A DNA stretch of 64,000 bases from Bryum argenteum (Eukaryota > Streptophyta > Bryopsida > Bryales > Bryaceae): NCBI GenBank assembly GCA_037043015.1, contig CM073321.1, positions 20,085,001-20,149,000 on the forward strand, in the 5' to 3' direction. The notes beneath the pieces were generated by a model. It made no database searches, was not told the origin of the DNA, and worked only from the letters and a program-made list of their open reading frames with translations. Shown piece by piece: positions 513 to 39,457 of this stretch. Within the stretch, counting starts at the first letter, position 1, and every line of letters begins with the position of its first letter. A program made the translations under genes and the position numbers.

Positions 513-1080
513 GTCCCTAGACCCTAGATCCTAGACCCTAGATCCTGCACCCTGGACCCTGACCCTGGACCCTGGACCTAGAGACCCTGACCCTGCACCC
601 TGGACCCTGGACCCTGGACCCTGACCCTAGACCCTGGACCCTGGACCCTAGACCCCTGGACCCTGGACCCTGACCCTAGACCCTGCACCCTGGACCCTGG
701 ACCCTGACCCTGGACCCTGGACCCTGCACCTGACCCCTAGACCCTGGGACCCCAGACCCTGACCCTGGACCCTGGCCCCTGACCCTGGACCCCTGACCCT
801 GACCCTGCACCCCTGCACCCTGCACCCTGCACCCTGCAGACCCTGCACCCTGCAGACCCTAGACCCTGGACCCTGCACCCTGGACCCTGGACCTGGGACC
901 CTAGACCCTAGACCCTAGACCCTAGACCCTAGACCCTAGACCCTAGACCCTAGACCCTAGACCCTAGACCCTAGACCCTAGACCCTAGACCCCAAAACCT
1001 GAATCCTAGACCCTAGACCCTAGACCCTGAACCTTAGACTCTTGACCCTGGACCCTAAACCATAGACTCGAAACCCTAGA
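513..1080. repeat. Telomere-like CCCTAGA/CCCTGGA minisatellite
   Basis: The tract is made of 6-8 bp units of the form CCCTRGA. The stretch at about 898-991 is a nearly perfect CCCTAGA heptamer run of about 13 units. The plant telomere repeat is CCCTAAA, so this reads as an interstitial, mutated telomere-like tract or a minisatellite derived from one. It abuts the left end of the TATCGG palindrome domain. Open frames across it are artefacts of the repeat. Confidence 0.85.
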
Positions 1081-1857
1081 CCGATATCTCATAGAATGTA
1101 TCGGAGGGCAGCCGATATGAGGAAACCATGAAATCAAGAAGCGAAATTAATAGAATATACGAGGGCTGCACAAAAGCATATCGAAAAGAGTGTGTGACTG
1201 AAAGAAATGATGAATGTAATTATACCCAATTAGGATAGAGAAAGAACATACAAGTTTGAGAAATTCCATATGACCAAGGATACTAGCATGCTAAGTGAGT
1301 GGTGTATCGGCAGGCAGCCAATAAGAACCCAATACAACGCCGACCTTGCCAACTACTGTGACAATTGGCATGGCAGCCAAAAATATGAAATTTGGAAGTG
1401 GGCCGCCAGTCACTGATCTAGAAGAATGCCTGTTTAGACTACGTCGGCCGGCAGCCGATAACTGCTGCCAGGCAGCAGTGATTGAAGATCTTCATCCGCA
1501 TCTATATGTCTTCTCTGTAACACACCATCATCTGCATTTCCATGTCGCACTGAGTACATGATAGCCGGCAGCCGATAACAACTTAGAGGCAGCTGGAAGT
1601 CACCGTCTCCATCGCCACGAAGCAGTACAGCATCACAAGCATATCGCTGTAGTAAGACTGCGGAACAGGAACCAAAGATGGAGACTGAAAATATGTCGGC
1701 CGGCAGCCGATACCCGGGCGAAGGCACCTGAAAGTCCAGAGCAGCATTGGCATGTCGCGGTACATCATCACCAGCATCTCCATGCAGCACTACGAAAATA
1801 TGTCGGCCGGCAGCTGATATAACTAGGTAAAATGCAGTTTAATTCTCAGCATCATCT

Positions 1858-4800
1858 TCATATTACAGCACCTGCGGCTTCAAGGTTTGCAAGTGCAACA
1901 GCGGCGGATGCATCAGGAATGACATGAGTAGCAGGTGGCCCATTCCTGGCATGGGAGGACATTTGCTGTGAGAATAAAACGATGCTGACGTTGACAACTT
2001 GAGGGAGACAAGGCTCCTTGTGCCAACGGCGCGACCAACACTCTCTGGCAACCAAGGACTTGCCCTCCTTCTTTGATTGCATAGGAGTCCACCATTCCAC
2101 CTTAAAGTTCTCGTAGTTATTTCCCGGAGAGAGGTCGACACATTCTAGAACACAACCAAGCCATACAGGAAGGTAATGGTTATTGCAAGGACGACAGAGA
2201 ACAAAGTCACCAAGGAGAACGTCTTGAACGGATTGAAATCCATCCGTGGTCTGCCCTTTGCAGGACCACAATATCGATAAGGGTCGGCATGATCCTCGGG
2301 TGTAACATCCTGCAAAGCTAATTGAGGTGAAGTAGATTGTGAGTCCAGACGAGCATGATCACGGGACTAGTCAGAGAGCAGCTAAATTACCTCAACGAGG
2401 GACGCGGACGCAAGCAGAAGTGGGGAGTTGATCTTAGCGTTAATTCGCTCCCAGTACCGTATGGATCCAGCCATCTCTTCACAATATCTTCTATTTCGAG
2501 CCATGCCCATCTTCCAGAACTCGATGAACCGCAGGGCGACCATGGAGCAGAGGGTCCATGGCTACCCCGGTGGAGGGCGGAATCGAAGAGAAAAATCTCG
2601 ATTTGCCATGGAGCATCGCCACGAAAAAGCTATTCTTCGGAGGGGTTGGAAAGAGCACCTTTGAATCGCGAACAGGTGGTCGTTTGAAGGCGCGGAGAAC
2701 CTGATAGAGCGAGGATATGGTGAAATAAAAATCACTAGGCCAAAGAGCAGTAGAATAGTGCGCATAGGCTCCGTCACTGTGGCCGTGAGTTAGCATCCCC
2801 GTGACCAAAATAGGTATCTGACTAAGGCCTGCGGTAGCCTTCGTGGTCCTCTGCATCCTCGGAATGGCGGCCTTTGTTGTGTCCATCTTGTCATGAATAA
2901 TGCACAAAAACTCAGATGGATTCTGAACGGACTGCATACTTCAACCTGCGTAGATATTCCGGCAAGCACGCTGATAATTAAGATGTCGCTCCCTGTCATC
3001 GACAGGAGACTGCCACTCATCGCAACCTCTTGGATATTTTGCTATGCACTCCACAAGAAAGTCACACTCGGTGCACTTGGAGAAGCTAGATCCAATAGCC
3101 TTGACCTCAACATTCTTGAAGTGAGATTTCCGGAGCTGACTAATCGTACAGTGAGAGACATGTGCCATGTAACACTTCAGATTAACCTACAGATCATGAA
3201 GCAGAGATATTGTTAGAATAGGAGCAAGGATAAGATATCGGCCGGCAATCGATAGGCACAGAGGATGTCAGGTATGAGAACGCGTGTAGCAACGACTACT
3301 GAGTGTGTCGGCCGGCGGCCGATACACAGAACCCGAGCATACTGCACACACATAGACAAATCCAAGAATGAAATCCGGGAAATGATGAAGTAAACGAGGA
3401 GAAGGAAAGTGAGAGTGTGAGAGCTTACATCGTTGACCTGGCCGCGCATGTGGTCCCCGCTCATTGTGGAAGGGACAACTTTGAGGTTATCCACATGCTT
3501 GTTCCCAACGAGTCTAAACTCATTCGGCATCTGGTCAACGTTCTCGTCAATAATCTTCTTCAATGTCGCACGAGTTTGAATGGTTTGGGGCCGCGGTCGA
3601 AGCGTTCCTGCATTACTATGAGAACCGCTAACAGACCCTGAGATAGCGGCTGCTTTGTAGACGTGGTAAGCAGATCGAGAGACACCGTGAATGATGTATC
3701 AGGCATTCTCGCAGACATCAACGCATTCGAGAGTTATGAACCTCCTACCCCCGGGGGTGCAAACATTAAGCTGCTTCTGGACTGCGTAAGCGATCTCCCT
3801 TCTAGCTTCAAAAGAGCAAGCATAGAATTTGCGGCGGAGGGTCCTCGTGGACTCCCAAGGGAATGTTTGACAGCATCTATCCTTGCAGCATTTCTGAGAA
3901 CTAACCTTTCAAACCTCGTCGTCGGAGGTCTTAAGTTTTGTTTTGGACCCTCCATTTGGATCCTTGGATAGGATCCTCCGATGCACAGACCTGTAAGGGT
4001 TCCGAGGGACGCCTTGGAGATCAGGGCAGTGAGGAGTATCCTTCCGACCAGCAGCTGAGCAAAGAATAACAATATGAGAGAGAAGTCGGCCGCAGTGAAG
4101 CCTCGTCCGCAATAAGGGCCAACGCAATATAGTCATTTGCAGGGCAGCGTCATCCGACAAATACATGATACCAACATCACTATCCCCAAGAACATTCTCA
4201 TCACATGCTTCGTCCTAAAGGCAAACCTGAATCATTGCCCTACCGAAGAAGCTTAGATCTTCATTCAACAGGTCACAGCACTTGTTTCTCCACAGCGGTC
4301 GGTCGAGACAGGGAAGACCCGATTCAGGACCCGCGTCGTCATCACTGTCGCTTGACGGTGGGGCTGTGTATCCAACTGCATCCGACGTTCCACGTCCTTC
4401 CGATCCAACGCTGCGGCAAAGAGAACAATGTTGGGGTGGTAAAGGACTGTAGTCGATGTCGGGACATGTAGGGAGAGGGGGATTCTGATTCCCCACACGA
4501 GAGTTGGTGGAGGACCCACTATCATCGCTGCGCTCCAAATAACCCCGCTGAAGAAACAGATGGCCGGAACTCCCACAGAAATCAGTAGAGGGCGGAGAGT
4601 CGAATAGCTCCGCACCGTGATCCTCGACCTTGACTTTCTTCGAAGATTGGGGTATCAGCTGGCAGCCAATAGGTGTAACAGGCGCCGTCGTGAGTTGTAT
4701 GGGTCGAACCTTGTATCCTCTCCAGAGGATGTTGTGCCCAAGACAGTCACCTAGGGTAGTGAAGGCTGACTCCTCGCAGGAAGCAGTAATTCCTACAAAG

Positions 4801-5363
4801 TCTTTACATATCTTTAAAAGCTGAACAACGACAAAAAAACTGTGCGGGACGTAGAACCCCTCCCATTTTCCTTTTGGGGAGCACTCGACTATCAGTCCAA
4901 CACCAGCGCAGTGATGTGCAGACTGATCCACGTGCAGAAGCGCAACCTCCATGTTTACAGTAAGAGTAAAGAACTCTTCGATGGGTTTCTCCGCGATACC
5001 TTCAGGTATCGGCTGCCAGCCGATACCTTTCGGGACAGAATCTAATTCATTAACAATAGGCCTCATATATTGCACCTCCCAAACTATTCTTTTACCAACG
5101 CATTGTTTAAGAAGCTTCGAATCGTCTGTGGGAAATGGTATAATCATCTCGATATTACTTGTGATATCCAGAACCAGGACCTCAAGAAGGGAGGGGTCAT
5201 GACGCGCATTTTTCTTAATAACAGCGCGACCGGCGTAATACAATCCCACGTAGGTTAACGCGACAACGACGCCCTTAGCTAGCGTCCATCTACCCGACCC
5301 ACCATTTCTAGTGAAAGAGTCAATGGGTTTAGTTTCCAAAACTAATGGCAGCAGACGCTTCAT
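1858..5363 (-). pseudogene. Transposase-like gene of element A (DUF7869-like family), decayed
   Basis: One frame runs from the ATG at 5363 to about 3428 and is broken only by in-frame stops (TAG at 4215, TGA at 3909, TGA near 3690). A clean GT-AG intron (about 3427-3187) follows, then an exon from 3186 with one TGA near 2942. Landmarks in order are a repeated N-terminal module, a Cys-rich block CCKDRCCQTFP near 3.88 kb, an HTH-like stretch, CTECDFLVEC near 3.08 kb, CIIHDKMD and VTGMLTHGH near 2.8-2.9 kb, and a C-terminal block at 2271-1858. The same landmarks recur in the gene at 28.7-31.1 kb. From memory this matches plant transposon-associated proteins annotated as DUF7869, probably an RNase-H-fold transposase. 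The segment that should hold the DNAxxxNKN and HTHDDID motifs is degraded. Two palindromes lie in its intron and two are translated in frame (4653, 5007). Confidence 0.65.
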
Positions 5364-5407
5364 TTCCGTGTTTTTCCAATTACTTCAATGCGAAAGTGGA
5401 AAGATAG

Positions 5408-5763
5408 TATCGGCCTGCAGTCAATACAGTTACAATTACTAGAATGTGGAAGTGCGAAAATTGTATCGGCCGAGACCCAATACAGCTAAAAGTACTGGAC
5501 TGTGGTATGGCAAAGATAATATCGGCTGATAGCCGATACAGCAATGAGTACTGCAGAGCGAGGGTGAAACTATAGTATCGGTCGGCAGCAAATACAGCTA
5601 CGGGTACTGCTACAGCGAGGGTGAAATAATAGTATCGGCTGGCAGCCGATACAGCTAAAAGTACTGGAGTACGGGACTGCAAATACAGTATTGGCCGGCA
5701 GCCAATACAACTACAAGTACTGGAGTGCGGGACCGCGAATACTGTATCGGCCGCTGCCAATAC
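5408..5763. repeat. Phased palindrome array, 7 copies at 56-bp spacing
   Basis: Family A palindromes start at 5408, 5464, 5520, 5576, 5633, 5689 and 5745, so the spacing is 56 bp with one 57-bp step. The sequence between them is related but more diverged, with AGTACTGGAG-type words recurring. The array begins 45 bp upstream of the transposase-like ATG at 5363 and lies between two divergent genes. That is the position of an operator or bidirectional promoter, as an inference. Confidence 0.9.
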
Positions 5764-6734
5764 AATACATCACGCAAACTATATCGGCTGGACATAAAAC
5801 TATATCAGCTGGTCAGATACATGAGCCTAGAGTTCAGGTGATTAAGAACGAAATTATATCTGCTGATGAGAGGACGATATCGACCGGCGTCGATGTCTGC
5901 AGAGCTAAAAGCTACAGCTTGGGAATTCAAAATAAATCAGTAAAATTAACGCTCATAAAGTGTAAAGATAAATAAGTAGTCCAAGGAGAAGGGATATGCT
6001 TGAATATTCTACGCAAAAACAATGTAGAAATTTATAAAACAGAGAAATCAACATGACGAGGAGGGCGAGACGACATGACAAGATGAGGAGGAGAGCGAGA
6101 GGACAGGACAACATGAGGAGGTGAGCGAGAGAGAGAGAGAGAGAGAGAAATGAGAAAAATGGGAGTGAATGGGTACCCTAGGCCTACCCCACTCAGCAAT
6201 TGGCGCCCAAATCAAGAAAATTTCAAAAACCAAGAAGGCAGAAATTTGAATTGAGAGCGGGGGCCGGGGGACGAGCAAGCATTGATTCGTGACGTTTTGG
6301 CGGCGGGCAGCAGTATCTTTTCGCGGGCAGCGCTTTGTGCAGCAGGGCAGAGCCGCGGGCAGGCGCGCCGCTTGGATGAAAGGGACGCGACCGGTCATGT
6401 TGGGAGGAGGGGGTAATACCTCCATCCCCCCCCCATTTCTCTCTCATGATTCACTCCTCTCCACTCCTCTCACCTCTCCTCCGCGCACCTCTCTGCCCCC
6501 CTCTCCTCCGCGCACCTCTCTGCTCCCCTCTCCTCCGCGCACTGTTTTTAGGTTTTCTATTTGTTTTTGTCTTTTGTTGCAATCCGACGGCGGCCGACAC
6601 GGGAGCTTGGCTGTTAACCGACGCGGAGTGGAGCAGCAGCAGCCGATACGCGGAGTGGAGCACCCGACAGAGGAGTGCGCCAAATCCTAATCGGTCGATA
6701 TCCGCGTCAGAGCAGCCGATACGACAAGTCCGCC
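5764..6734. promoter_or_regulatory. Upstream region of the ParB-like gene, with (GA)n and a 27-bp repeat
   Basis: Degenerate half-palindromes at about 5780-5900 are followed by a (GA)n run near 6126-6149, a C-rich tract near 6420, and three copies of a 27-bp unit containing CTCTCCTCCGCGCAC (starts 6474, 6501, 6528). More GCCGATA half-sites lie near 6640 and 6713. The region ends at an ATG with good start context (GCCATGG) at 6735. Pyrimidine-rich CT tracts are common in plant 5' leaders, so this is a plausible promoter and leader. No TATA box is assigned. Confidence 0.45.
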
Positions 6735-6780
6735 ATGGCCAAATCCGCAAGGTAAGTCTTCCGCCATTCTGATTTATCTA

Positions 6781-6856
6781 TATCGGCCGCCAGCCAATAG
6801 AAGTGTTTTATCGGCTGGCAGCCGATACAAGCCTTTCTATCAGCTGCCATCCAATA
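6781..6856. repeat. Three palindromes at 28-29 bp spacing in intron 1
   Basis: Family A palindromes start at 6781, 6809 and 6838, immediately downstream of the first splice donor. They show nearly the same spacing as the larger array further along the same intron. Confidence 0.85.
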
Positions 6857-6990
6857 TATGTGTTTTGTATTTCTGTAGGCCTTCCTTTCATCAATATGAA
6901 ACTAGCTTTAATATAATTATTGATTTAGCTTTAGTAAAAGTACTGATTTAGCTTTACTTTGTGTTTTATGTTTTGTATTTTGTATTGTCT

Positions 6991-7247
6991 TATCGGCTGC
7001 CGGCCAATAAGTATAAGCTTATCGGCCAATAGCCGATAAGAATAAGCTTATCGGCGGGCAGCCAATAAGTATAAGCTTATCAGCCGGCAGCCGATATGTA
7101 TAAGCTTATCGGCCGGTAGCCGATACGTTTAAGCTTATCGGCCGGCAGCCGATACGTATAAGCTTATCGGCCAGCAGCCGATACGTATAAGCTTATCGGC
7201 CAGCAGCCGATACGTATAAGCTTATCGGCCGACAACCGATATGTATA
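6991..7247. repeat. Nine-copy 29-bp palindrome array inside intron 1
   Basis: Palindrome starts at 6991, 7020, 7049, 7078, 7107, 7136, 7165, 7194 and 7223 are exactly 29 bp apart. The 10-bp spacer is usually a variant of CGTATAAGCT, itself partly symmetric through AAGCTT. There are no unique spacers, so it is not a CRISPR-like array. It lies in the first intron of the ParB-like gene. Spacing near 29 bp is about 2.8 helical turns, so sites alternate faces of the helix. Confidence 0.95.
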
Positions 7248-10200
7248 AGTCTATTTCGCTTGTTTGCGTTTCTGCTTGTGTTCTTTACTACTTGTGAGCT
7301 TTACTGGTATGTATCGGCTGGCGGCCGACATGTTCTTACTTGCGCTTCGGTGATTCAAAAAGCGGGGACTGCTGAAGAAGATGCCGTAGAGAGCCTCGAT
7401 GTCACCGAAGTTTCGGCAGGCAGAATTGTACCGCGTGCTGCGTGGCTGGCGTCTCCAAATATAGATGCATGGGGCCTCAATTGGAGGGAACTGCCTTCGG
7501 GGGGAGGGGGTTGAGATTGTCTGCTCCGTGGTGATTAAGGGGAACATAATGCCGGGACACAGGTCCGTCTTGGCGGTTGAGAAGGCCGTTGACAAAGCGG
7601 CGAATGTCGACCTCCTCATAAGCGTTAAGCTTCCTGGCCAATTGGAGGGGGAGGAGGATTACGTCGCCATATCCCTGCCGTTGGAAAAGTGCACGGAGGA
7701 AGTCTGCGGAACGAGCGCTATGAAGTTCGGCATGATCTTCACGGGGTCAGTTCCAGCGAACTTGGAGGAGTTTATGGATTTCTAGGATATGCTTGGAGGG
7801 GGGGCGCAGCGCGGGGGAAATAAGAACCTCACTGATACTGCGGTGGCCGCAGAGAAGCAGAAGAAGAATGCCGCCAGAAAGAAGATGGATTCAGGTGCCG
7901 CTGACAACGCGGTTGTCAGCGTTGGGGATCTTCCCGTCTTGGCTGGAGAAGTAGTCGCCAGAGGAAGAAGACAGGGTCCAAGGTGGTAGAGCTCACTCTG
8001 GACGAGGCGCTTGAGAGAGGAAATCGCATGTCTACAAAGACGAATGATATCGAAATCGACGCCATCTACAAAGCGTTGGAGAAGGGCTTGAGCTCTTCCT
8101 TCCCCTACAAGAAATGGCGGCTTGCCGGGGTAATTCCGTCCGAGAAGTTGCACATCGCACCGGACGAACTGAAGTACCAGAGGATTGCCAAGGAGCGTCT
8201 AGGTCAGGTGCAATAAGTTTTCTTTTTGCTTTATCCATTATTGTATCGGCTGCCAGCCGATACACTTTGCTGATCTTATATTATCAGTGAATTGTTACCA
8301 CTCCTTATCCCCACTTCAGTATCGGCTGCCGGCCGATACAGATTTCTGTTGACATTCCGATGTCTTGCTTGTCTGTATCAGGTGAAGGCCATATACAAAG
8401 GCTAGGGTGCTTTCCGGAAGAAGCCTGAGATTCACGGAATCCCTCTAAAGCGGAAACCCCTCGCAACGGATTCTGGTATGGATGGGGTCATGGACTACAT
8501 GCCCGGTGAGAACGACACGCACCCCATGCCCGACGGTACGATAGTTCCATGGTGGGAGAATCCATCTACTCACTGGTACATCATCGGGGGGCAGCACACC
8601 GTCACAGCTTGCTGGGAGCTCGCTAACACATTCCCAAAGGATTCGGATGCTCGGAGGGAACTTTTAGAGTTTGAAGTCATCCCTGTCTATAGCCAAGATC
8701 CGCGGCAGCTAGTTTGTGTCTCCAACGCGCTCAACCTTAACAATGCGGAGAAGGTTGCGAGGGAGACGTTTTGATCCTGCGCTGAGCTTGGGCGAGGAGC
8801 ATGGATCCGTGCTGGTCGTCCGCTACCCTACCGTGGAGGCGGAAAGAGCTCCAAGGAGTACGAGGTATGACTTTTTCTCGGTATCAGCTGGCGGCCAATA
8901 TCTGGCTATTTTCTTGTTGCCTCGTCTTTCTTGCTATTCTGATTCGCATCGGCCGCCGGCTGATACAGTAAATGTTCATCTGTTACTGTTCTAACATTCC
9001 TTGTTTGCTGCAGCTTGCCAAGGCACAAGTGATGGCGCACTTTGTGTCCGAGAAGACAACCAATAAGCTTCCTCTTGTCTTCGCCGGTGACGAGCGTGGA
9101 ATAGCTGGATCAAAGTGTTCAACGCTTGGGAGGCCGAAGAGCTGATCGCCGATGATGGCAGTGAGCGTGGTGTCGTTCTCCGCCTGCCACTGACGGTGAT
9201 CACAACGTCAGATCTCGTTTCGTCGCTTGGGCTACGGGACTCCAACCTCATCAGCCTCGCGAAGGAGATTATCGCTTGAAAAGTTTGCATCAAGTCAAAG
9301 AGCAGGACAAAGGATATGCTTACGCTGCAGGACTGGTGCCGCAATAAGAAGGTCGACCGAGTTATCATGAATGAGCTCATGTGGAAGTTGAAGGGCCACG
9401 CACTACCCTGCAAGGACGCAAACTGGGTCCCTTACAAGGATGAAATGTGGGACAAGCTTGCTCGCGAGAAGAACTTGACGCTGGACCTCGTCAAAAATAT
9501 TTGGACGGACCAGAAGAAGGTGACGGCCGAGAACGAGTGGCTAATGGGTCGTGTGAATGCAATGAATCCCACCACCGATAAGTCCAAGAATGGAATCGCG
9601 CCAGCAATCTTCTCTGAAATTGTGGAGACTTACACCATCGTTCATGTTGAGGGAAGGGGGGCGTCAACCAGGGACTGCCTCATGTACGTGTGCAAGAGTG
9701 CTGACGCTATCAAAGATGTCCTTGCCATCGTCGAGGACGCCACCTAACATGCCGTTATCACCACAGACCCCAGGGTATTTGTGCTTTTGTGCTACACGCC
9801 ATGTGGGGAGCCGATTGTTGTCAGCCGGTCCGAACTCTTTGCTATCGTGAAGGCCGCTATAGTCGACACTCAGGGCGACGCGTTCGAGCTGAGTGGAGAT
9901 GATGAAGAGGACGACACTCGGATTATGCCAAACATTCCGGTGCCAACGTTCTTTATTGGCACCTCAAAACAGCGAGATCTACTCGCTTCTATCTGGCGCT
10001 GTGCTACGGAGATGTGGGCTGCACATTCCGTTGACTACAAGCCCTCTGTGCGCGCTGGCTTTAAGATGTTTGAGCTGTACGCTTCTACGCTCGTCACGTT
10101 GTCAATCACCTATTCGAAGACTCGGTCAGACGACAACATCTTCACGGTCTTCAAGAAATTCACTGGGATCCAGAAGCCGATCGACTAGTTCCAAGAGTGT

Positions 10201-10606
10201 CCGGAAGGAGTTGTTGACTGGAATGGTGGTTGCTGCAAAGTCATTCACGTTACGCTGGAGAAGTTTTTGAAACCAGTTCTCCGCTTGAAGCAGGTGACCC
10301 TCATCAATATCTGGGGTAGTGGGAACATCACGGAGATTGCACTAGTAGCTTTCTCACCGCTTTCTTTTTCAATGTCTATACTTATTGGCTGCCGACCGAT
10401 ACATTTCTAATTGTTGCTTTCTTTTACTACTCAGAGGACAGGCAGACCAGTTTTGGAGTTTGTCCGGTCTGTGGAGGATGTTAAGATGGCGGAGGATTGG
10501 GTCAGGGGAATGAACCCGGACCGGGTCGTTTTTTCTATTTCATCCTCTGAAGGTAGCCCTGATGCTGGTGGCCGCGATTCTCACCCATCCACGCAGAGGA
10601 GAGTCA

Positions 10607-10724
10607 TATTGGCTGGCGGCCGACATTCTTCTGAGGACGTTCACATGGACAAAGCGGCTGATCTTGACTCTGCACCTCAACCAACTGCTGCGTCCGGATT
10701 GGATGTATCGGCCGGCGGCCGACA
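10607..10724 (+). repeat. Two palindromes inside the reading frame of the ParB-gene exon
   Basis: In the exon 10435-10878 the palindromes at 10607 and 10706 are read in frame as ILAGGRH and VSAGGRQ, within an otherwise polar, Ser/Gly/Asp-rich, probably disordered segment. A third copy at 7312 would read VSAGGRH. The palindromes have therefore been tolerated in a protein-coding context. Confidence 0.75.
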
Positions 10725-10878
10725 GGATGACGAGGCCGGATCTCCGACACCAATGCAGCCGGGTGGATGTCCTGTCACGCCGGGGAAGAACATCAGCGTC
10801 TCTACCGCGAGTTGCGGCTCCCGTGGTGACTCTGTCTATGACGACCATTTGGTGGCCCGGGAAATTGATGCTTTGGCT

Positions 10879-11570
10879 TAACGGGACCTGGCTCCGCGTG
10901 TTGCCGGAGGAGTGTCGATGGAAATGGACTTGCGGAACCAGCCTGTTGACGAGGTTATCGTCGTCGACGTGAACTCGCAGTCCAGAAGCACTTGATCTGC
11001 CGGCCTTCATGAAGGGAAGCGTGCGGTCTCTCGGTCTTCATCCAACCGTTTAGCCGTCGGCTGCGAGCCGACATCTTCAGCACATGCAGCAGCAAGTGGT
11101 GGCCGCTCGCAAGCCCGCAAGCGCATTGGCGATACTGACCCCAATGTTGATTACTTCCCGCCCAATGCGGCTGCGCTCGACTCGTCGAACGAAGAGTTGT
11201 CACCTATTCAATGTGCACATGCTTCTCCGAAGCGGACTTGGCAAACTGGAGGTTTATTCCAGACGTTGGTGTAGATTTAGCTATTTATCGATATCTTCAG
11301 TACATAAGATTTAGCCGCATTCACTCGAGCAATACGCTGTCTGAGAAGTTCACATTGTATCGGCTGCCAGCCGACACCTATAATACTTCCGTTGTCTACC
11401 GATATGGAACCTGTATTTCTCATTCTACGTATTGCTTGGTGTACATATATTTGATTTTCTTTTGTATTCATCCAATATATCGGCCGCTGGCCGACATGTC
11501 GCTGTCCGCGTGCTTTTATCCTCTACGTTCTGATGTTGTTTTTTGAATTTCTTATTATCGCATTGCACAG
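10879..11570 (+). other. Downstream of the ParB exon: possible extension and intron
   Basis: After the TAA at 10876-10878 the same frame stays open-looking for a while: an acidic segment, then Ser/Ala-rich residues and a basic RKR patch near 11120. Further stops follow, so it may be an eroded C-terminal extension. From about 11280 the DNA is AT-rich and intron-like, with palindromes at 11358 and 11478, and ends in an acceptor GCACAG at 11570. Confidence 0.35.
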
Positions 11571-12233
11571 CACGATGGATCTGCGGAGACCTCTCCGCAA
11601 CGGTATGCTCCCCTCGCGTATGTTTCATCTGTACCTCCCGTACCTAAGGTACGTCGGAAATACTTTCTTCTTTTCGACATCAATGGGACCATTATGCACT
11701 TTCGCCCTCACAGGGTCATCCAGCAGAAAGTTCTAAAGAGCGAGGCTCGGATTAGGTCGGGACTCAAGGAGCTTATTGCTTGGTGTTTGGCAAACAAGTT
11801 TGAGGTGGTCTTTTGGTCCTCCGTTCAGGAGAAAAACCTGACACCGCATCTCGAGTATATTCGGGACAGGGTTCCTATTTTCCCGGATCCCACTGTTGCG
11901 TATGGGCGGTCAAAGTGCTTGATAAGTGCTTACAAGGACCCTCAAAGGCCACATGTTCCTGTCTTTCTCAAGTCCATAAGGCATCTTCTTTCGTGTTGCC
12001 TTGAGCTATTTGCGCGTGGAGTCATTGAAGAGAATATGCTTCTCATTGATGACTCCCCGTTCAAAAATGTTCTCAATAATCCTTACAGCGCTTTCCACCC
12101 TTTGACGTTCACAAAGGACTCGGAGAAGTCCTTCTCCGTTGGGCCACACCTTCTTACTGTCCTGCAGTCGTTGCTGCATGAGCAGATAAAGCTTCAGCTT
12201 CCCGTACCTGAGTTTTTTCAGGCCAACGCCTAG
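11571..12233 (+). CDS. FCP1/NIF-like HAD phosphatase exon
   Basis: The exon follows a CAG acceptor at 11570 and stays open in one frame to a TAG at 12233. A proline-rich lead-in precedes the catalytic-type motif FDINGTIM near 11676. FEVVFWSS follows near 11800 and LLIDDSPFK near 12040. The order DxxG(T), WSS, DDSP is that of the FCP1/NIF (CTD-phosphatase-like) subfamily of haloacid dehalogenase phosphatases. The second aspartate of the usual DxDxT is Asn here; plant FCP1-homology proteins of the DLNG type show the same change, so activity is uncertain. It lies in the palindrome domain, has no start codon of its own in the exon, and may be the 3' part of the ParB-like gene or a separate gene. 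Readable codons continue for about 22 residues past the TAG. Confidence 0.6.
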   Translation, partial: HDGSAETSPQRYAPLAYVSSVPPVPKVRRKYFLLFDINGTIMHFRPHRVIQQKVLKSEARIRSGLKELIAWCLANKFEVVFWSSVQEKNLTPHLEYIRDRVPIFPDPTVAYGRSKCLISAYKDPQRPHVPVFLKSIRHLLSCCLELFARGVIEENMLLIDDSPFKNVLNNPYSAFHPLTFTKDSEKSFSVGPHLLTVLQSLLHEQIKLQLPVPEFFQANA

Positions 12234-12857
12234 TATGGAAAGTGGAGGATTCTTCCTTCTAATCCTCTACACACGGAGTTGTGCAAACTTGCTAGCACTT
12301 CTTAATCTTCCGCAACGCCATGGAGATCGGCCCTCAGCTGTCTTGTCGGCTGCCAGCCAATACTTCTGCTTTTTGTTTATGTAGGTATATATAGTCATGT
12401 ACATCTTTAGGATTTATATACAGACGTCCATCTAGATATTCTGTAGCTGTTTTTTATTGAACTCAGGTTGTCCTGCTCTAGTAATTGTACATTTTGAGGT
12501 CCGCCTTTTTGTTCACAAACTTTTCAATATGGTATATGATAATCGACTTTATTATTCTACTACAGCTGCCTTTACTTTATTCTTTGCTTCTCTGAGTTGT
12601 CTCCATTTATTATTCGATATCGACTATTCTACGATATTATTCTTGTTCTGCCGATTCTTTTATGTAGTGTTTGTTTGCTGTCATTTTTGCATCGATATGA
12701 ATATCTTTATGCTCATTCTTTTACCTTATACTTGCCCTCATGTTCTTTGTACTTTACCTCCTCTTTCCATATCGGCTGCCGGCCGATATGAGTCTTGTTT
12801 CGTCTTGTTTATTCCTCATACCTAATTGTTTCTGTATTGTATGTCTTCTTCATGCAG
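12234..12857 (+). other. AT-rich intron-like stretch with two palindromes
   Basis: The region is T-rich and contains family A palindromes at 12344 and 12770. It ends with a TTCTTCATGCAG acceptor at 12857. The open frame at 12457-12825 is low-complexity and hydrophobic because of T-richness and is not supported as a gene. Confidence 0.5.
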
Positions 12858-13511
12858 GCTCTTCTCCACATTGATTCCATCTTCGATCGACCCCATTCCC
12901 TCAAGAAGTGCATTGTCCTTTGCGTTTCGGGAGTACTGTGCTTCATTGATCCTAATGTTGCGGTTGACCGTTGGGACGCTCATTGGAATATTGTAAGGAG
13001 GCTTGGTCTGAAGAAGTTGTTTCAAGTTTTGCTGGAGCGATTCAATGTTGGCTTGTGGTCGAAAATTCCTCTACGGGATTTGATGCCACTCCTCAAATTT
13101 ATTCTCCCAAAGGGCGTTTCTAGTAGGTTATTATTCGTCTTCGGAAGAGAGCAGTGTGAACGTCCTCAGAATCACCCGTGGTGTTACAAGCTCCTCAATA
13201 CTCTCTATTGTAAGCCCCAATCTGGGGATGTGTGCCACCCTGACCAAGTACTTCTAGTTGACGTTAGTCCTCTCTCTCTCTGTAGAACTCCGGATGTTGC
13301 TTGTTACATGCCTTGGCCTTTTCAAGGTGGTTTTAGCCCATCAACTAGGACTATTTCGAATATAGTTACCAATATTCTCCCCTTCATTTATCCCTTACAT
13401 AAGTTTGGATGTGTTTCTGAGTATATGAAGCACTCGCATAGGCCTGGTCAAATACACTTTGAAGTTGCACATGCCTTTAAGTACAGGAAACCTGTTTATC
13501 AAAACTTTTAA
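12858..13511 (+). CDS. Second FCP1/HAD-like exon, degenerate motif I
   Basis: An exon of 217 codons starts after the CAG acceptor at 12857 and ends at a TAA at 13509-13511, with no internal stop. It looks like a diverged sister of the 11571-12233 domain: a strand-like CIVLCVSGVLC where the nucleophile motif should be, FNVGLWSKI matching the FEVVFWSS strand, and VLLVDVSP where the sister has LLIDDSP. The catalytic Asp pair in motif I is not visible, so this would be a pseudo-phosphatase domain if expressed. The intact frame contrasts with the damaged exons upstream. It could be the last exon of one long gene or the remains of a tandem duplicate. Confidence 0.45.
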   Translation, partial: ALLHIDSIFDRPHSLKKCIVLCVSGVLCFIDPNVAVDRWDAHWNIVRRLGLKKLFQVLLERFNVGLWSKIPLRDLMPLLKFILPKGVSSRLLFVFGREQCERPQNHPWCYKLLNTLYCKPQSGDVCHPDQVLLVDVSPLSLCRTPDVACYMPWPFQGGFSPSTRTISNIVTNILPFIYPLHKFGCVSEYMKHSHRPGQIHFEVAHAFKYRKPVYQNF

Positions 13512-13652
13512 ACTATATAGTGAGTATCGGCTGGAGGCCGACTCCCTTTCAAACCTGTAATTCTTTTCTAACTTATATATATAATTACTTTTGCACATTG
13601 TGTTATGATCTCTAAGTATGCATCTTCGGCATGTGTCGGCCGCAAGCCGATA

Positions 13653-15130
13653 TTATTTCTGGACTATGAATATGTCCATAATTAGTTAAATACCCGTTTG
13701 TATTAAAAATAAGGGTTTGGAATAGAGATACATGGAACATGTAATAAATAACAAAAACTTGTGAAATTGTCACAAAGATTTATGCCATAAATTCATAAAA
13801 TCTTCAAAGCTTTAGTCTTTTATACACTACAAAGTAAATAGCTACTATCCAAAAGAATTCAACTACATCGATTAAATTCAAGCATAAAGGTCTTCTTATC
13901 GTCTTTTTAGTAAGACTTTACAAGAGTCATAAAATACAAATCTTATAGCACATTTTAGTTTTTCTCTAAACACTTTGGGCTTTTAGGGGTTAATAATTTA
14001 CCCTTAAAGGCCGAACAAAATAGAGTGCTTCAACTTTTCTTTAAAAAAAGCAAGTCAATGACAAATTTTACAAAATTTCCAAAAGACAATCATAGAAACT
14101 ATAACCAAAAGCTTTTGTAGAGCACTATTGTGAGATACTCCACTCATTTTTTTTGAAGTATTTTCGTTGAACGGATTGAGAGATTCAAGATTTTGAGGAA
14201 ACTGGGCACTTGAAAATTTTTCACTAAACAAAGTTTGAACAAGTATTACAGATTTCTACGGAGTCATTAACACATGAGCTATTGAAATCATATATGAAAT
14301 AGAATTTCCTACCATCCAATTATTCATGGTACAAGCATTGAAGACGTACACAACAATTTGTAAGACTTGCAATGAGCAATGGTATAGAAAAACTCAACAT
14401 TTCATAGAAAGAATAGAAAAGATGATAATTATTTGGACGGGTTTGAAACAAAGGGGGTTCCTCAAAGAGACCATTCATGTGACTTGCACTTCAATACATG
14501 AATATATTAGAGGCACTACAAGTTTCCATGGGAATTTTGTCATTTGGTAAAATAATGCCATTGCTTCATGATTATTTCAAGAAGTTAAAAAACAAAAGTT
14601 GCATCCTTTATTCTCCTTAGTATGATGTATTAAAACCCATATAGATATTTTTTGATTCAGTTGTTCAACATGTGATTGCAGTATAATTTTCATAACAATG
14701 TTCATTTAAATTGGGATCTTATGGTCTTACTATAAAGTGTATATAGTGAATTAAAGTTACGGTCTGATTATAAGTCAGAGTGCTTATAATTTTTGAATGA
14801 AGTATGGTATTTACAACCACATGAAGGCTTTTGAGTTTTCAAGAAGCGTGTCACAGTCACTAAAAGATAAGACATAAGAGAAACAAGGAGAATAATAGTA
14901 AATCTGGATATAACTCAAAAAGACACAATTAAATAAAAAGAGTACAACAAGACCAAGATGTGTGATGTACAGCTCTAAGAGATGTGTTGTCAAGACTAAG
15001 GTTATCCTCAACCTCAAGACGTATGTATACTAATTAAAAGAAAAAGTAAACAAAATAGGAAAAAAAATTGTAAAATATTCCACAACCTATGATTTTCTAA
15101 GACTTTCCCAAGTTAATTCCTTGGAACGTG
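13653..15130. other. AT-rich DNA, no recognised gene
   Basis: Base composition changes abruptly at the last palindrome (13634-13652). What follows is AT-rich with no exon-like frame. As it borders the 3' end of a decayed gypsy pol (minus strand), part of it may be an eroded long terminal repeat, but I cannot define its ends. Confidence 0.4.
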
Positions 15131-28673: not shown

Positions 28674-31110
28674 TCAAGCATTTGAAAATCCAACTATAGT
28701 ATCCTGAATGACTTCAATTTGATCCACCGGAATTTTTAAAGTGCACTCGGTTGTATCCTTCTTGGCATTTGACTTCCTTGAAGTCATCAATGAAGCTGTA
28801 TCCTCCCACAAAGGAGGTTGAGTATCGCTAACCTTCCAACGCAATCCTTTGTCCAAATCCCAGCCATTGTAGGTCTCTTGCACATCTCAATACCTTGATG
28901 TAGGCCGAAAGAATTGAATAAGGATGCAATTTGGCTGCTTGGGGTTTATGTTCGGATCTGACAACGCTCGCGCAATCCACACCGGTCGCGAGTCACCATC
29001 AGCAGGCCGAATAGCAACAAAGTATTCTTCATAAACATCACGAGCTACACGAAAAGATGGTTGAGGGCGATCTCGGATCTCTCCAATATAGGCCTCATCC
29101 TCTCCAAACTCCTCACGAAGTTCGCCATCTTCAGCGGATTGGTCCTCCAAAGTTGCATCTATTCTCGATAATGGCCAAAATCCGTCCCAAAGAACATACG
29201 AAGATTCAATGCAAACCTCTAGTACTGCCTTCACAGCGCGCCAATAGAACACAAGATGTTCATAGCGTCTTCTATACTCTCTAGTTCTATCTTCATCAGA
29301 CATTGCCTCCCTGTACTTGATAAATCTAGAAATGCCCTGCACAATGTCCTCCACACCCCTCATTGCACAATGCGTCGTAGAAATTGGATCACCACAAACA
29401 ACAACCTTCCGAGTCCTCTCTGCACAACTTAATCCCGGTTGTATCATTCGGCAACCAATCTTCTGCTGTGCACAAAACCTTGTACTTCATCACGGGACAA
29501 CCTGTCGAATCCAAAAAAAACTTGAATTGTTGAGCCTTCGTATGATCAGAAAGTGCTTCCCCTCCATCCCTAATAAACCCATCGATAAATCCTTTAAAAT
29601 CCGGCACCTCTTCAACAAGGTGGGGGATGGCTGGAATAGATTCCACGTCCATAAATGACTTCATGAGTAACGGTTTTGGGGGGAAATTGCCTTTCCTCAA
29701 CAACATGCTCCACCTCCCAAACATTGCATCGATGTCATCATGGGTATGCTCAACTAAGATGAAATTGACGTATACCTCCCGGAAGATCTTCTTTGCGACG
29801 AGGAGAGACCAAAAATAAAATACATATCTATTCTTGTTGTCACCTGCTGCATTGTCCATCTGAACATTGAGAATTGGCGGAAGAGGAATCCCTCGAAGTG
29901 GAAGAGCTGGTGCTGGACGGAGTGATGATATGCAAGTCTCCACACGTGAGAGAACAGCAGCAAAGATAGGTGCCGACCTTGGCCCAACAAATAGCTCCCT
30001 CAAAGAGTACTTTGGTGGCAACTCTATATTTTGGAGCAGCTTAGCAAAAGAGCCCACCGTGTAGTTTGAATCATGTGCGAAAATATCTAGACCGTAATGC
30101 ACGTATCGTACATCTCCGTGGCCATGAGAAATCATTCCTGTGACGAATACTGGTAGCTTCATTAGACCATTAAGCTCCTTACTCTTGTGAGAAAAGACAG
30201 GGGAAGCGGTCTTTGCATGATCCACTTTATCATGCATAATGGTCAAACACTCATGCATGTAGGTTTTTTGACCTATACCCGTTTGCATAATATAACTCCC
30301 GATGAGCATGGGCTGCAGCCAAGTGTACCTCGAGCTTCTTTGCCCAAAGTAGTACTTGTTGCGACCGAGAAACAGAGCGACGACGGAGTGGTGCAGCCGA
30401 TCACATTTGGAGCACGGAGCGAAGTTATCCGCGGGTTTCTTCGCATCAAATTCAGGAAAGTCTAACTTCCGAATCGTACTCAGATAAGATGGCGAGACCA
30501 TCTCCAAACCGAAGCCTTCATTAAATTGGTATGTCGTTCCACTATACATCCGCTATCGGAAACATTGGGTCTTCTCCCTCGGGAGGGGCTGAACGCAGTT
30601 CCTCGTGCAACAAACTTTGCATGAGACAGAACTTATAGACTCCTGAGTTAATAATCCTTTGGATTTGACGGATGTTTCACAAGGCGGGTTCCTAGCTGTA
30701 TTGTTGTAACGTCCGCTACGCGATAACTGAGGTCTCGCAAGAAGTGCAACACGAGAGTCATGATCATGTCTTATCTCATGGTCTCTGAGACTAGCCCCAT
30801 TATAGAAGACTTTATCGAACCGCCACGCCCTGATAGAGTATCTTCACTCATCTGGCACCACTGTGGCATCAAGGGTCTTCGAGATTTGAACTACAACTCG
30901 GGAGTTCCGAAGTGGACCGTTGCTACCTTGGACGAGATCGTAACTGATGTTGTGACATAGGCCCTCCGCTATAGGCCGACTCTCGTCACCGTAAAGTATA
31001 ACGAACTTAGTAGCCCAAAGACGCTAGGGGATACCTTCACAGTTTGGAATGTTTTCCAGTTCCTCTGGTTGCTCCACAACATCTTCATCAGAGGAGTAAT
31101 CACCAAACAT
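28674..31110 (-). pseudogene. Transposase-like gene of element B (DUF7869-like family), decayed
   Basis: One frame from an ATG at 31110 (acidic start FGDYSSDEDVVEQPEE) to 29389 is broken by TAG and TGA codons. It then shifts frame near 29.43 kb and again near 28.88 kb, ending at 28674. Landmarks in order: CKVCCTRNCVQPLPREKTQC near 30.6 kb, APCSKCDRLHHS near 30.4 kb, CLTIMHDKVDHAK, PVFVTGMISHGHGD, VQMDNAAGDNKNRYVF near 29.86 kb, VNFILVEHTHDDIDAMFGRW near 29.74 kb, a PVMKYK strand, and a C-terminal module (EEYFVAIRP, WIARALSDPN). The DNxxxDNKN and HTHDDID acidic motifs look like the catalytic strands of an RNase-H-fold transposase. Landmark order matches the element A gene, but this copy keeps the catalytic part. 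Confidence 0.7.
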
Positions 31111-31188
31111 TGAACATCTTGAGAAGCCATGGTAGAAACTGCAAAATTTTGACAAACAATAGTTTTGGAACAAAATTATCTGTGGCGG

Positions 31189-32240
31189 TTCAACTCGAGT
31201 CGAGTTGAATACAATAATGATTGAACAAATCTTTTTATATATATTCATCAATCCAATCCAAGAAACACTAATAACAGAAAATAATCTAGATAAAGAAATG
31301 ATGTATGAAAAGATTCAACTCGACTCAAGTTGAAGTTCCTGGAAAAGAATTCCTTCGCTATTTAAAACAGTCATTATCTTAGAATTTGGTACGCAAGATT
31401 CTTAAGGCATTCACAGTGTTACGAGCGATATTAGCTATTAGTGAGTAGCCATAAAATTGCACCAATCAAGAACGTAATATATATGTGGTATATAGTATTC
31501 GAGTCTATTTAGACTTAAGAGGGCCTTGAATTTGCTAATGTGTCGGAGAAGATACATTTAAATTCAACTCGAGTTGAGTTGAATATCCACAAACGAATCC
31601 ACTGCACTGACGGCAAATCCACTGCGAATCCACTGCACGGACGACTATATTATGTACGAATTATTATTTAACTCGATTCGAGTTAAATAATGTTGGGCAG
31701 ATTACAGATCATTGGCCCTGCCGAGTATCCACACCGTAAATTTCAACTCGACTCGAGTTGAAGATTCTCTTTTGTAAAGAGAACAACCCCTCACGAATAA
31801 ACCAAATGACACGGGATGTTGTCCAATTCAACTCGAGTCGAGTTGAATATCACGCCCATGAATAGATCATTCCTGATTTTGATAATATAATTGATATTTA
31901 ACTAATATATCTCCAATTACGTGAGAATTCTTATTTAACTCAATTCAAGTTAAATATTATTTGGCAGATAACAATGTCATATGGCCCTACCGAATATCCA
32001 CACAGTGAATTACAACTCGACTCGAGTTGAATATTCACATCCATAAAGAGAACACTGGATGATGTCCAATTCAACTCGACTCGAGTTGAATATCAACACC
32101 TTTGCATAGATCATTCCTAATTCTGACACCATAACGGATACTTGACGAATTACAATTTAACTCGACTTGAGTTGAACTTCTACAGTGGAACGTAGACATT
32201 TACACCACGGTTATATAATTTCAACTCGACTCGAGTTGAA
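31189..32240. repeat. Palindrome family B, 11 copies
   Basis: A 21-bp palindrome with 10-bp arms (TTCAACTCGA / TCGAGTTGAA) around one central base occurs at about 31189, 31314, 31563, 31667, 31742, 31827, 31934, 32011, 32070, 32156 and 32220. Several copies are perfect; others show paired changes that keep the symmetry (for example TTTAACTCGA with TCGAGTTAAA at 31667). The first lies 79 bp upstream of the transposase-like ATG at 31110. Spacing ranges from about 59 to 249 bp and is not phased. Paired changes suggest selection or conversion for symmetry. Confidence 0.92.
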
Positions 32241-33800
32241 TTCGTTCACTATGAACCGATATGCTTTAACATTCTCCCGGAAGTATTGGCGGATTTTACG
32301 GAATTCAAAACCAGCTAACACTCAACAACAAAGTATGCACCCGAGCGTACCATCCCAAAATCTAAACTATGCGTGATATAGCAATCATCAGCATTGAACT
32401 TCAATACGCTCGAAACGTAATGATTGACAGTTATGTACTAGTGCAAACTGGAGACACCATACTACATGGAAATCGAGGACCCAGAAGCCTCGCAAAAAAC
32501 AACGCATCAGAGTCAATTCGAGCATGCACCCAGCCCGTCAGCTCTACAATTCAAGTACCAAGAGAACTCTGAGATGCTACGTTGCTCCAAACAGCGAACT
32601 CAATCTACGTATGTCGAGCAAACACAGACGTCACGGACTCGGGGATTACAACAAGAACGGGAGAGCGAGGGCGAAAGGCATTGAAGATAAGACACGAGAA
32701 AAAAAGATGAGGAGAACCATTCCGAAATCGCTCAAGTACTTGGAGTGGCGGGAAAACTAAGGCGGCAAACGAATAGACTTTTTCATTGGTCGAGTTTGAA
32801 TTTGCCTTTATAGCTAAAGGTAAGTCTATTCGTTTATGACATTAAAGCAACGCTCACTAAATCCAATCCGGGGTTCACCACTGAGGTAAGGCCTCAATTT
32901 TTGGTTTTCCCATTTTTGACCTCCGTAAGGTCATTTTTTTGAATTTTTATTTTAATTTGCGTTCTGCACCCCCTTTTTACCTTACAAGGCCTCTTCTTCG
33001 AATTTTAAGGGCTTATAAGCAAAAAAATACCAGACAGCCTTTTATTAGCCTCCCTCCATATTTGGAAATTCCAAGGGGGAACATAGATTGAATTTAGTGT
33101 CCGGCACATTAAAGCATTCCAGAATTAGAATTTGGGGGTAGGTGATATTATTTTCCGAATTCTTTCCCAAAAAGATCAGAAAATTTTGTTGCTATAATTG
33201 TAAATTATTTAGGAAGAACTTTGAGGCCTGAGAGCCAGGCAAGGTAATTTCTAGACAGTATTTATATAGTAGAAAATACAAAATTATTGACTCTCCGGAT
33301 ACTCAGTATCCTGGTACACGTATGTAGTGATTTGGCAAGTGATTGAAACATTAGTTGATTCAAAAAAAATTTAAAAACAAAACAAAAAAAATTTGACAAT
33401 TATTTATTCTGCATTCATATCAAAAACATTTTGATGGACAAACCTCTTGTCCTCCGCAGTAGTGGTATATTATACCTACACATTACACGTCTGAATCCTT
33501 CTCAAAATATCTAAGTTTTTATTTATACTTGGAAGCCTAGAAAATTGTTTTAACGTCCTCTTTTATTACATATAGTGCCACGCGGCAGTACTTGAATAGG
33601 AATCAAATGCGACTCCATTATGATCTTCATATTTGATCCTCAGCAGACTTATTTAAACATGTCTAGACATGTTGCAATCGTTTTATATTTCAAACAATAA
33701 GTTCTAAAACTACCTCCATTCAAAAGGATTTTCAATACAAGAATAAAATAAATTGTAATAAAGAAGATGTAACATAATATTTATTGTTTTCTATACGCTT
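32241..33800. other. No recognised gene; small hairpin at 32767-32835
   Basis: The sequence is AT-rich from about 33.3 kb. The words AAACGAATAGACTT (32767-32780) and AAGTCTATTCGTTT (32822-32835) are exact inverted repeats of 14 bp separated by 41 bp. They could be a stem-loop or the ends of a tiny inverted-repeat element. The short plus-strand frames at 32.2-32.8 kb have no family resemblance. Confidence 0.45.
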
Positions 33801-33925
33801 TTAGGGTATAGGACTATAGGGTTTAGGGTATAGTGTACAAGGTCTAGGGTTTAGAATTTAGGGTTTAGGGTTTAGGATATAGAGTGTAGGATTTAGGGTT
33901 GGGTAGGTTTGGGGTTTAGGGTACA
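33801..33925. repeat. Degenerate telomere-like TTTAGGG tract
   Basis: TTTAGGG heptamers and variants (TATAGGG, TCTAGGG) recur over about 125 bp. This is an interstitial telomere-like sequence of the plant type. Confidence 0.75.
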
Positions 33926-34790
33926 TTAAGGTTCTTCTATATGAGATTTAATGTAAATATCTCATATGTTTTACTACGTGTGGTGATGAAGTTTAGGTTG
34001 GTATATGTGGTGCTAGAATGGTTGATGCCTCTCTAGTAGTTTTTTAAGAACGCTTTAATTTTTGCCTAGTCAAGTTATTTAGCTTTGTCTTTCGCTTCAC
34101 AAATTTTTGTGGTTTTGCTGTGCATTCTATGTTAATATTTTTGTGTTGGATTTGATATCTTCATGCTTTGAGCCTTTAGGTTTCTAGCACAAGCTGGACC
34201 TTACATTGCAAAAATCTCTTATCGCAACAATGCCTTGCTTGCATATTTTTGCTTTATTGTAGGCTCTTGACATCAAAGCATACTACATCATTCATATCAA
34301 AGATATTCACATTTGAATTAGCTTCAAGAATGCTTGTTACTAAAGTGCTCAAAGAAAGGAGGATAGTATGCATCACTTTAAGTTTGAAGGTTTATAGGTA
34401 GGCTACTTACATATTTACTGCCACCTTCTGTGCGTCATGTAGTTACCTCAGAGACCTGATGTTCATTGAGAAGGTCAAAAAACCAGTGTAATTTACTCTA
34501 GATTTACTCTAGTTCGTTTTGTCATGTGTTTTTTGTTTTTAACAAAACATTACGTTATAATAGTACATTAATAAAATAATATATTAGCTTTAATATTTAG
34601 TATTTTGATGTTATATTCCTAGTATAGAAGTTATAACAATGGTGCATGATCAACAATTACATTTCAATTGAGTGTTGATAATTAAGTTATACTTCATCTT
34701 TATGTAGGTTTCAAAATAACTAAATTGACTGTCATTCTATTTGAAGCGACTGCTCAAGACTATTAGAAAAATAATGTGTTAGTGTTTGTA
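33926..34790. other. AT-rich DNA, nothing recognised
   Basis: No protein-like frame is present. Confidence 0.4.
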
Positions 34791-35629
34791 AGGCGGTTTG
34801 TAGTCAATAATCTACTTCTATAACATAATATTGTTGGACGATCCTTTGGTATGTATGATGTATGGCTATGGTATGAATGATGTATGGCCATGGTATGTGT
34901 AATGTATGGCCATAGTATACATGATGTTTCTCAATGATATCTTCTATCTATATACTCCCACTGTCTTATTTACATTGTCCAATAGGTTCTCTCAAACCTT
35001 CCTACCTGCTTATGTATCTATCCAATAATATTATTAATATGTAGCCAATAATATTATTAATAAAACTTTATAATGTAGTATTATTAATTTAATACTCATA
35101 ATCTAATCATGATTTAATGTAATAGGAATAATATGGTAGTTATAGTAATAGTACAATACACGCCAAATAAAATTTGCGAGAAAGTTATTCTAATTATAGT
35201 ACAAAGGTCCAAGGTTTTAGAAAACAATTGGTATCAATAGAACAAACAAGTGATTTCATAGACAGTGGTGGACGTGATATTAGAGTGATTCACCATCTTC
35301 GGGTAATCGATTGATGTAATTGATGTTCCCCATCATGAGAGGCGACGTCTATGCGTATCCATTTCAGCAATGGTGACTTCACTAGTTTATATATGTATAT
35401 ATATCTACTTCTATAACATAATATTCTTTAGCAATCCCTTAGTATGCGTAATATATGGTCAGGATATGCATCATGTACATCAATGGTATTTTCTATCTAT
35501 ATATATAACAAAAATAGGTTAATAATCCGGCGTTCTTTTTTATCCACTTGGGTACACACGTATCTTTGTACCAACCTACCAACATACAAATATACCAATC
35601 TATTATATACTTTGGATTATGTATAAAAA

Positions 35630-35673
<44 letters not shown>

Positions 35674-39022: not shown

Positions 39023-39457
39023 ACTTCAACTCGAGTTAATCGTAACCGAGTTGTGTTGATGTTCCAAAGATGAAATAAAGTTCAGCAGTTCAACTCGACC
39101 GGAGTTGAATTAGAAACACATTTTACTACCTATACATACCAACGCCAGTATATAATTCAATCAGATTCAACTCGTGCCGAGTTGAATTCTCCATTCAATT
39201 TTGTTTCCGTACGTTAAAGGAAATTGAAACCAACGAGCAAATCCCGAAGATGCCAGAACCTTCTCCTTGTTGGACGCCTGTGAATTCAGAGACCAACGAG
39301 AATTCAACTCAACCCGAATTGAATTTCTAATCCAGAATCCTCTTAATGGTTAAAGTAGCATTATAACAAGCGATATATAATTCATAGATTTTGGAATAGA
39401 ATAAAAATAAAATATAGATACATTAGGCTTAAACAATTCAACTCGATTCGAGTTGGG
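39023..39457. repeat. Palindrome family B, second cluster (5 copies)
   Basis: Copies or partial copies start at about 39025, 39089, 39166, 39303 and 39437. They are more diverged in the centre (CGTGCCG, CGACCGG) than those at 31.2-32.2 kb but keep the TTCAACTC arms. They reappear after 6.8 kb without any copy, which fits a single palindrome domain split by later insertions. Confidence 0.8.

Follow-up and report, generated by a model that had tools for sequence, protein, structure and literature searches.

Family-specific palindromes accompany a ParB-like gene in DUF7869 transposons of Bryum argenteum: a possible self-recognition code

The window analysed here, a stretch of 64,000 nucleotides from Bryum argenteum (contig CM073321.1, positions 20,085,001 to 20,149,000), contains an old, decayed copy of a terminal inverted repeat (TIR) transposon filled with a 19-bp palindrome. 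The element has two divergent genes, one for a DUF7869 transposase-like protein and one that apparently joins a ParB-like exon to NIF/FCP1-like exons. Related families in the same genome carry palindromes of their own, and these sets have the look of an address code with which a family tags its own copies. By analogy with the VANC protein of Arabidopsis VANDAL transposons, the ParB-like protein may bind the palindrome of its own family and keep that family active against host silencing, a reading that we prefer but hold tentatively.

A palindrome tied to one kind of transposon

Exact matches to TATCGGC-N5-GCCGATA number 12 in the window, compared with 0.00 expected from shuffled sequence, and with up to three mismatches there are 43 matches against 1.34 expected. 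An earlier note on this DNA had counted about 44 copies, which is close; the match at 12618 was dropped as chance-like, leaving 42 sites. The consensus of these copies, TATCGGCYGSCRGCCGATA, is palindromic right up to its central base, so the unit is a palindrome of 19 bp in which a single base is left over in the middle. All palindromes in the window fall in 1099-13652, and a scan of 14-64 kb gave no match. The confinement to 1.1-13.65 kb claimed earlier therefore holds inside the 64-kb window but not genome-wide, as the host genome has 635 exact copies (reversed control, 0). Of the 52 arm changes across the 43 window sites, 21 replace C by T or G by A at the four CpG positions, which suggests past methylation; we do not use this as evidence, since 24 transitions occur elsewhere.

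The earlier note had also asked whether the palindrome keeps company with the element's genes, and the two prove not to be independent. Searching the host genome with the ParB-like exon gave 117 matches, and every one of the 30 loci fetched from such matches contains exact palindromes. Co-occurrence was then counted for one asymmetric variant of the palindrome, 100 of whose 107 sites form 51 clusters. Ninety-two of the 100 sites have a ParB match within 12 kb, as against 1.0% of random positions (3.4% on C1), and 99 lie near a ParB, NIF or DUF7869 match. Counted as clusters within 12 kb, 45 of 51 are linked to a ParB match and 50 of 51 to a ParB, NIF or DUF7869 match; the last, at C1:7.529 Mb, is 2.3 kb from an element end fragment.

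The variant sites are unevenly spread: C1 makes up 17% of the genome yet has 57 of the 100, a crowding that could reflect a low-recombination or sex chromosome.

Each family has its own palindrome

Eight families were compared: near, which has the window-type palindrome; mid; and the far families F1, G, F2, L045, F2b and F2c. In the distant ParB relatives, palindromes were identified by enrichment of inverted 6-mers, with no motif given beforehand.

Mid: TRTCGGCTGSCAGCCGAYA
F1: ATSGGGCGATCGCCCSAT
G: CATCGGKCGATCGMCCGATG
F2: TTATCCCCGGNCCGGGGATAA, of which the L045 palindrome is a variant
F2b: TTATCGTCGNNNCGACGATAA
F2c: TTCAACTCGANTCGAGTTGAA

In the full matrix (up to three mismatches), motifs are common to near and mid and to F1 and G, and L045 matches F2. 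Beyond these relations there are only three stray matches, one of the near motif in G and two of the F2b motif in F2. Genome-wide, the F2 pattern has 328+333 exact matches and the F1 pattern 67+63, with controls at 0. Palindrome similarity follows ParB similarity across the eight families (r 0.79, reached in 19 of 40,320 permutations). Shared descent contributes to this correlation; it is not an easy account of a sequence that has been swapped over dozens of copies with its length, symmetry and placement kept.

Traces of the same association are found in protein databases. Translated palindrome remnants (SAASRY, SADGRY, VGWQPI and similar) occur in 11 of 26 near-type homologues, whereas shuffled proteins average 0.01 of 26, and YPRPGDN-like remnants occur in 3 of 13 F2-type proteins, one of them weak, in a count made without a control. 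Identities of about 45-75% make an origin of these homologues in the same genome unlikely.

Where the sites sit

The gene content proposed earlier (transposase-like, ParB-like and HAD-like exons) is present, the last as NIF/FCP1 (HAD-type) exons, although both genes are interrupted in the window copy. The gene and intron limits used for the placement counts were drawn by hand.

515..1082, no strand: telomere-like CCCTAGA tandem array, at least its right end (from 1005) common to other copies
1099..13652, no strand: 19-bp palindrome TATCGGCYGSCRGCCGATA, element-wide (consensus of 42 copies, arms with up to 3 mismatches)
1858..5384 (approximate), minus strand: DUF7869 transposase-like gene, in several broken frames
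5408..5707, no strand: palindrome array of ~56-bp period, intergenic between the divergent genes
6781..7330, no strand: palindrome arrays, mostly of 28-29-bp period, immediately upstream of the ParB-like gene
7465..8216 (approximate), plus strand: 5' exon region of the ParB-like gene, from open reading frames (ORFs) that are palindrome-free
8406..8870, plus strand: ParB-like exon, motif GGQHTV, frame open to 8774 in the window copy
9013..10350, plus strand: conserved middle exon, interrupted here (tblastn with an L040 ORF, E 4e-15)
10434..11274, plus strand: low-complexity linker exon with 3 palindromes, from ORFs
11571..12233, plus strand: first NIF/FCP1-like exon, motif FDING (DxN), PF03031 E 1.5e-6
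12858..13511, plus strand: second NIF/FCP1-like exon with a degenerate catalytic motif, E 1.9e-4, its 21.6 bits just under the cutoff of 21.8
13672..13698, plus strand: right TIR, 27 bp, reverse complement AACGGGTATTTAACTAATTATGGACAT, from the alignment of copies

The intergenic region between the divergent genes holds 19 of the 42 sites (9.7 per kb), and all five introns drawn for this gene contain at least one (3.2-14.1 per kb, on small counts). Among the rest, the linker exon accounts for 3, the transposase gene for 4 and the outer flanks for 7. No palindrome falls within the ORFs, taken from stop to stop, of the window's 5', ParB, middle (9280-10188) and NIF exons. The same pattern is seen elsewhere: in 30 near and mid loci, none of 257 sites lies inside the matched ParB segment (20.8 expected), and of the 120 sites in six far loci, inter-family conserved spans hold 1 (~38 expected) and whole ORFs hold 10 (~43 expected). 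The family-specific motif arrays are thus mostly non-coding, with a minority of sites in linker exons.

Linker-exon palindromes are in frame and translated at L037:1770-2270, L038:7045-7480 and window 10607-11073, and in the F2 linker they give repeated DYPRPGDN-like peptides.

In the two introns that flank the ParB exon, palindrome columns are 0.81-0.82 identical between near and mid (15 of 18 near and 12 of 12 mid loci), whereas other columns, exons included, are 0.55-0.66 identical. Of the intron palindromes compared, three have positions common to both families and one is near-only.

These placements bear on two alternatives. The palindromes might be small repeats that multiply by themselves, or by-products of recombination, to which no protein of the element corresponds; their co-variation with ParB would then be shared descent alone. 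Many sites do lie in tandem arrays of 28-62-bp period, and array expansion would thus account for much of the copy number; linked DNA also co-varies without function. We nevertheless consider this explanation improbable, as palindromic form, the 18-21 bp length and placement are kept while families differ in sequence, many copies are isolated, and three of the four compared intron palindromes keep their position. The presence of at least one site in each drawn intron might instead point to RNA, with hairpins in introns or untranslated parts acting on splicing or small-RNA production. That 19 of 42 sites are intergenic speaks against such a role, and the odd one-base centre would be more natural in a DNA site for a dimer than in a hairpin loop; we give this idea the least weight of all.

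The two genes and their proteins

The ParB-like, middle, linker and NIF exons probably form one gene because of their order and common strand. In near and mid families the NIF exon is typically ~3-3.5 kb downstream of the ParB exon (judged by eye), although some copies have a greater distance, reaching 24 and 30 kb. The predicted structure of a family homologue has the ParB/sulfiredoxin (ParB-CTPase) fold and is nearest to ParB and Noc. The fold that the earlier note had called from a motif is thus borne out in the homologue, the model of the window exon being too poor to judge. The middle exon has no Pfam match over its cutoff.

The NIF domain (PF03031) is matched in relatives with E 6.1e-15 and 2.4e-15. 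NIF/FCP1 phosphatases have the catalytic motif DxDx(T/V), from which the NIF domains of the element depart: the first reads DxN in the window, F1, F2 and G (by eye), and the second is degenerate in the window and G. To judge from these residues, the domains are of a pseudo-phosphatase type, and with DxN instead of DxD the first more likely binds than dephosphorylates a phosphoprotein.

The divergent gene encodes a probable transposase. The window copy matches PF25273 at E 7e-4, under the curated cutoff, and a 669-aa exon of the intact copy L059 matches DUF7869 at E 6.9e-41, far over it. DDE-like acidic motifs were seen by eye, and the Mutator models in Pfam gave no match to this protein.

Alignment of other copies reaches window position 13698; of the 22 best among them, 19 stop at query 841-846. 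The 27-bp end recurs in inverted orientation, slightly altered, at the left ends of L054, L055 and L057, which identifies the element as a TIR transposon. If L048 and L055 are the two ends of one copy, its span is ~13.6 kb. On the left, window 1005-1300 aligns in L053, L055 and L057; neither the first 1100 bases of the window nor the 4 kb upstream yielded a left TIR for this copy, and no convincing target-site duplication was found at the ends of L055/L048 and L057/L047.

The window also holds a second element fragment (29866-39457), with 14 F2c palindromes TTCAACTCGANTCGAGTTGAA (up to three mismatches) at 31189-32240 and 39089-39457. A minus-strand DUF7869 match at 29866-30252 adjoins them, and the fragment has no ParB-like match within it; an F2c-type ParB match lies at C1:20154904, 5.9 kb past the right end of the window. 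Elsewhere, locus L061 has at 3320-3800, beside DUF7869, a CTAAAC-N7-GTTTAG array of ~30-bp period (287 genome sites; reversed control, 29), and L062 has the palindrome TTTAGCTCGANTCGAGCTAAA, which resembles the F2c motif, beside DUF7869. Repeats of other kinds lie towards the edges of the window: the 16-bp tandem repeat GACAAGTGAGGAGCGC at 1-134 runs on leftward and is also found at the end of L058, and 60525-63803 holds long complex tandem repeats with units of ~38, 111 and 150 bp among others.

What might read the palindromes

In the model that we prefer, the ParB-like protein would bind the palindrome of its family as a dimer, a form of protein that a palindromic site suits. The arrays would turn whole elements into high-occupancy targets, and binding would keep the family active despite host silencing, much like VANC in VANDALs. 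A possible partner of the NIF domains is a phosphoprotein, perhaps the tail of RNA polymerase II. If protein and palindrome changed together, each family would go on acting on its own kin. Self-family activation or anti-silencing is favoured here over other roles for its likeness to VANDAL/VANC and to the bacterial antisilencer VirB. A more doubtful, fuller version is a eukaryotic parS-like code, in which a few hundred or more transposons of one genome would be divided into families, each with a palindrome read by its own ParB-fold pseudo-phosphatase protein. That protein would coat its own copies and block silencing or recruit transcription machinery, and joint change would make new families independent.

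Several points weigh against ParB-like binding. (i) The chief weakness is that DUF7869 is as tightly linked to the palindromes as ParB. (ii) Over the 6 kb read of each, L061 and L062 combine DUF7869 with palindrome arrays and give no match to ParB, the middle region or NIF, and no ParB match lies near them among the best 150 of 868 and of 848 candidates. (iii) Palindrome, ParB and DUF7869 are co-inherited, so their correlation does not name the binder, and the far families are represented by two loci each for F1, F2, F2b, F2c and G and one for L045. (iv) Avoidance of coding spans is equally expected from selection on the protein alone. (v) The identity of palindrome columns between near and mid may owe something to the aligner, and mid lacks one of the two palindromes that near has in the upstream intron. 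(vi) The Box II P motif GxxR serves nucleotide binding in ParB (PMC12704722). Its arginine is present in none of 76 sequences read without preselection, which have mostly GQHT or GQHS, five more being unreadable, and this counts against a CTP-driven sliding clamp. (vii) No DNA-binding helix-turn-helix (HTH) was matched by Pfam in the scanned ORFs.

Points (i) and (ii), together with the second palindrome cluster of the window, would suit binding by the DUF7869 transposase, alone or complexed with the ParB-like protein, in synapsis or end recognition. CACTA elements have subterminal repeats, of which the palindromes would be a greatly extended version. We think this unlikely, though a serious candidate, because the sites are spread over ~12.5 kb, in introns and most of all between genes, rather than clustered at the ends, and because the 27-bp TIR differs from the palindrome.

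The earlier note had raised a parS-like binding or segregation system. The anatomy of an element-linked, parS-like set of sites is supported, to which binding would be a putative addition; segregation is not supported. In a true partition or retention system a ParB-like clamp would load, spread and tether an extrachromosomal or integrated form at division, and the ParB/Noc fold of the homologue and the palindromic sites beside the gene are what such a system would have. The absence of a ParA-like domain among the 25 ORFs and proteins scanned against Pfam (small ORFs left out), the integrated TIR form of the element and the missing GxxR arginine make this very improbable.

Relation to known systems

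VANDAL elements have a Mutator-type transposase, whereas the present ones have a DUF7869 transposase-like protein and, as second protein, one with a ParB fold plus NIF domains. Arabidopsis VANC is a transposon protein that binds short, tandemly multiplied motifs in introns and upstream regions (PMC5735166), and these motifs are family-specific and change along with the protein (PMC5735166; PMC10398659). The Bryum elements resemble this in having a factor of their own, its role putative here, and family-specific short motifs in introns and upstream regions, often in tandem. The motif is an 18-21-bp palindrome here and a 9-base, same-orientation motif in VANDALs, and anti-silencing belongs to VANC and would extend to the present element by analogy.

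With bacterial ParB, Noc and VirB, the last a ParB-related antisilencer (PMC10770331), the element shares the ParB-CTPase fold, as seen in the homologue, and palindromic sites near the gene. It differs from them in being a eukaryotic transposon with dozens of sites and, probably, NIF exons in the same gene, in the absent GxxR arginine and in that no ParA or HTH was identified in the scanned ORFs. The usual ParB-fold protein of eukaryotes is sulfiredoxin (PMC12704722). Fungal DNA transposons reported to encode TET/JBP dioxygenases likewise carry a gene that could act on host silencing, for an unrelated protein (PMC12730594). Searches within open-licence PMC papers showed no description of this ParB-palindrome transposon system and no paper on DUF7869. 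The element is thus neither a demonstrated ParABS system nor a VANDAL; its anatomy appears VANDAL/VANC-like, with a ParB-type fold.

If the ParB-like protein reads the palindromes, this would bring ParB-fold DNA recognition into eukaryotic nuclear transposons. Several natural protein-palindrome pairs in one genome would then form a panel for how a fold changes its DNA specificity, and the elements would be a second VANC-like case, with an unrelated protein, of a transposon marking its own family. How selfish elements split a genome into self-recognising families would thereby become testable by binding assays.

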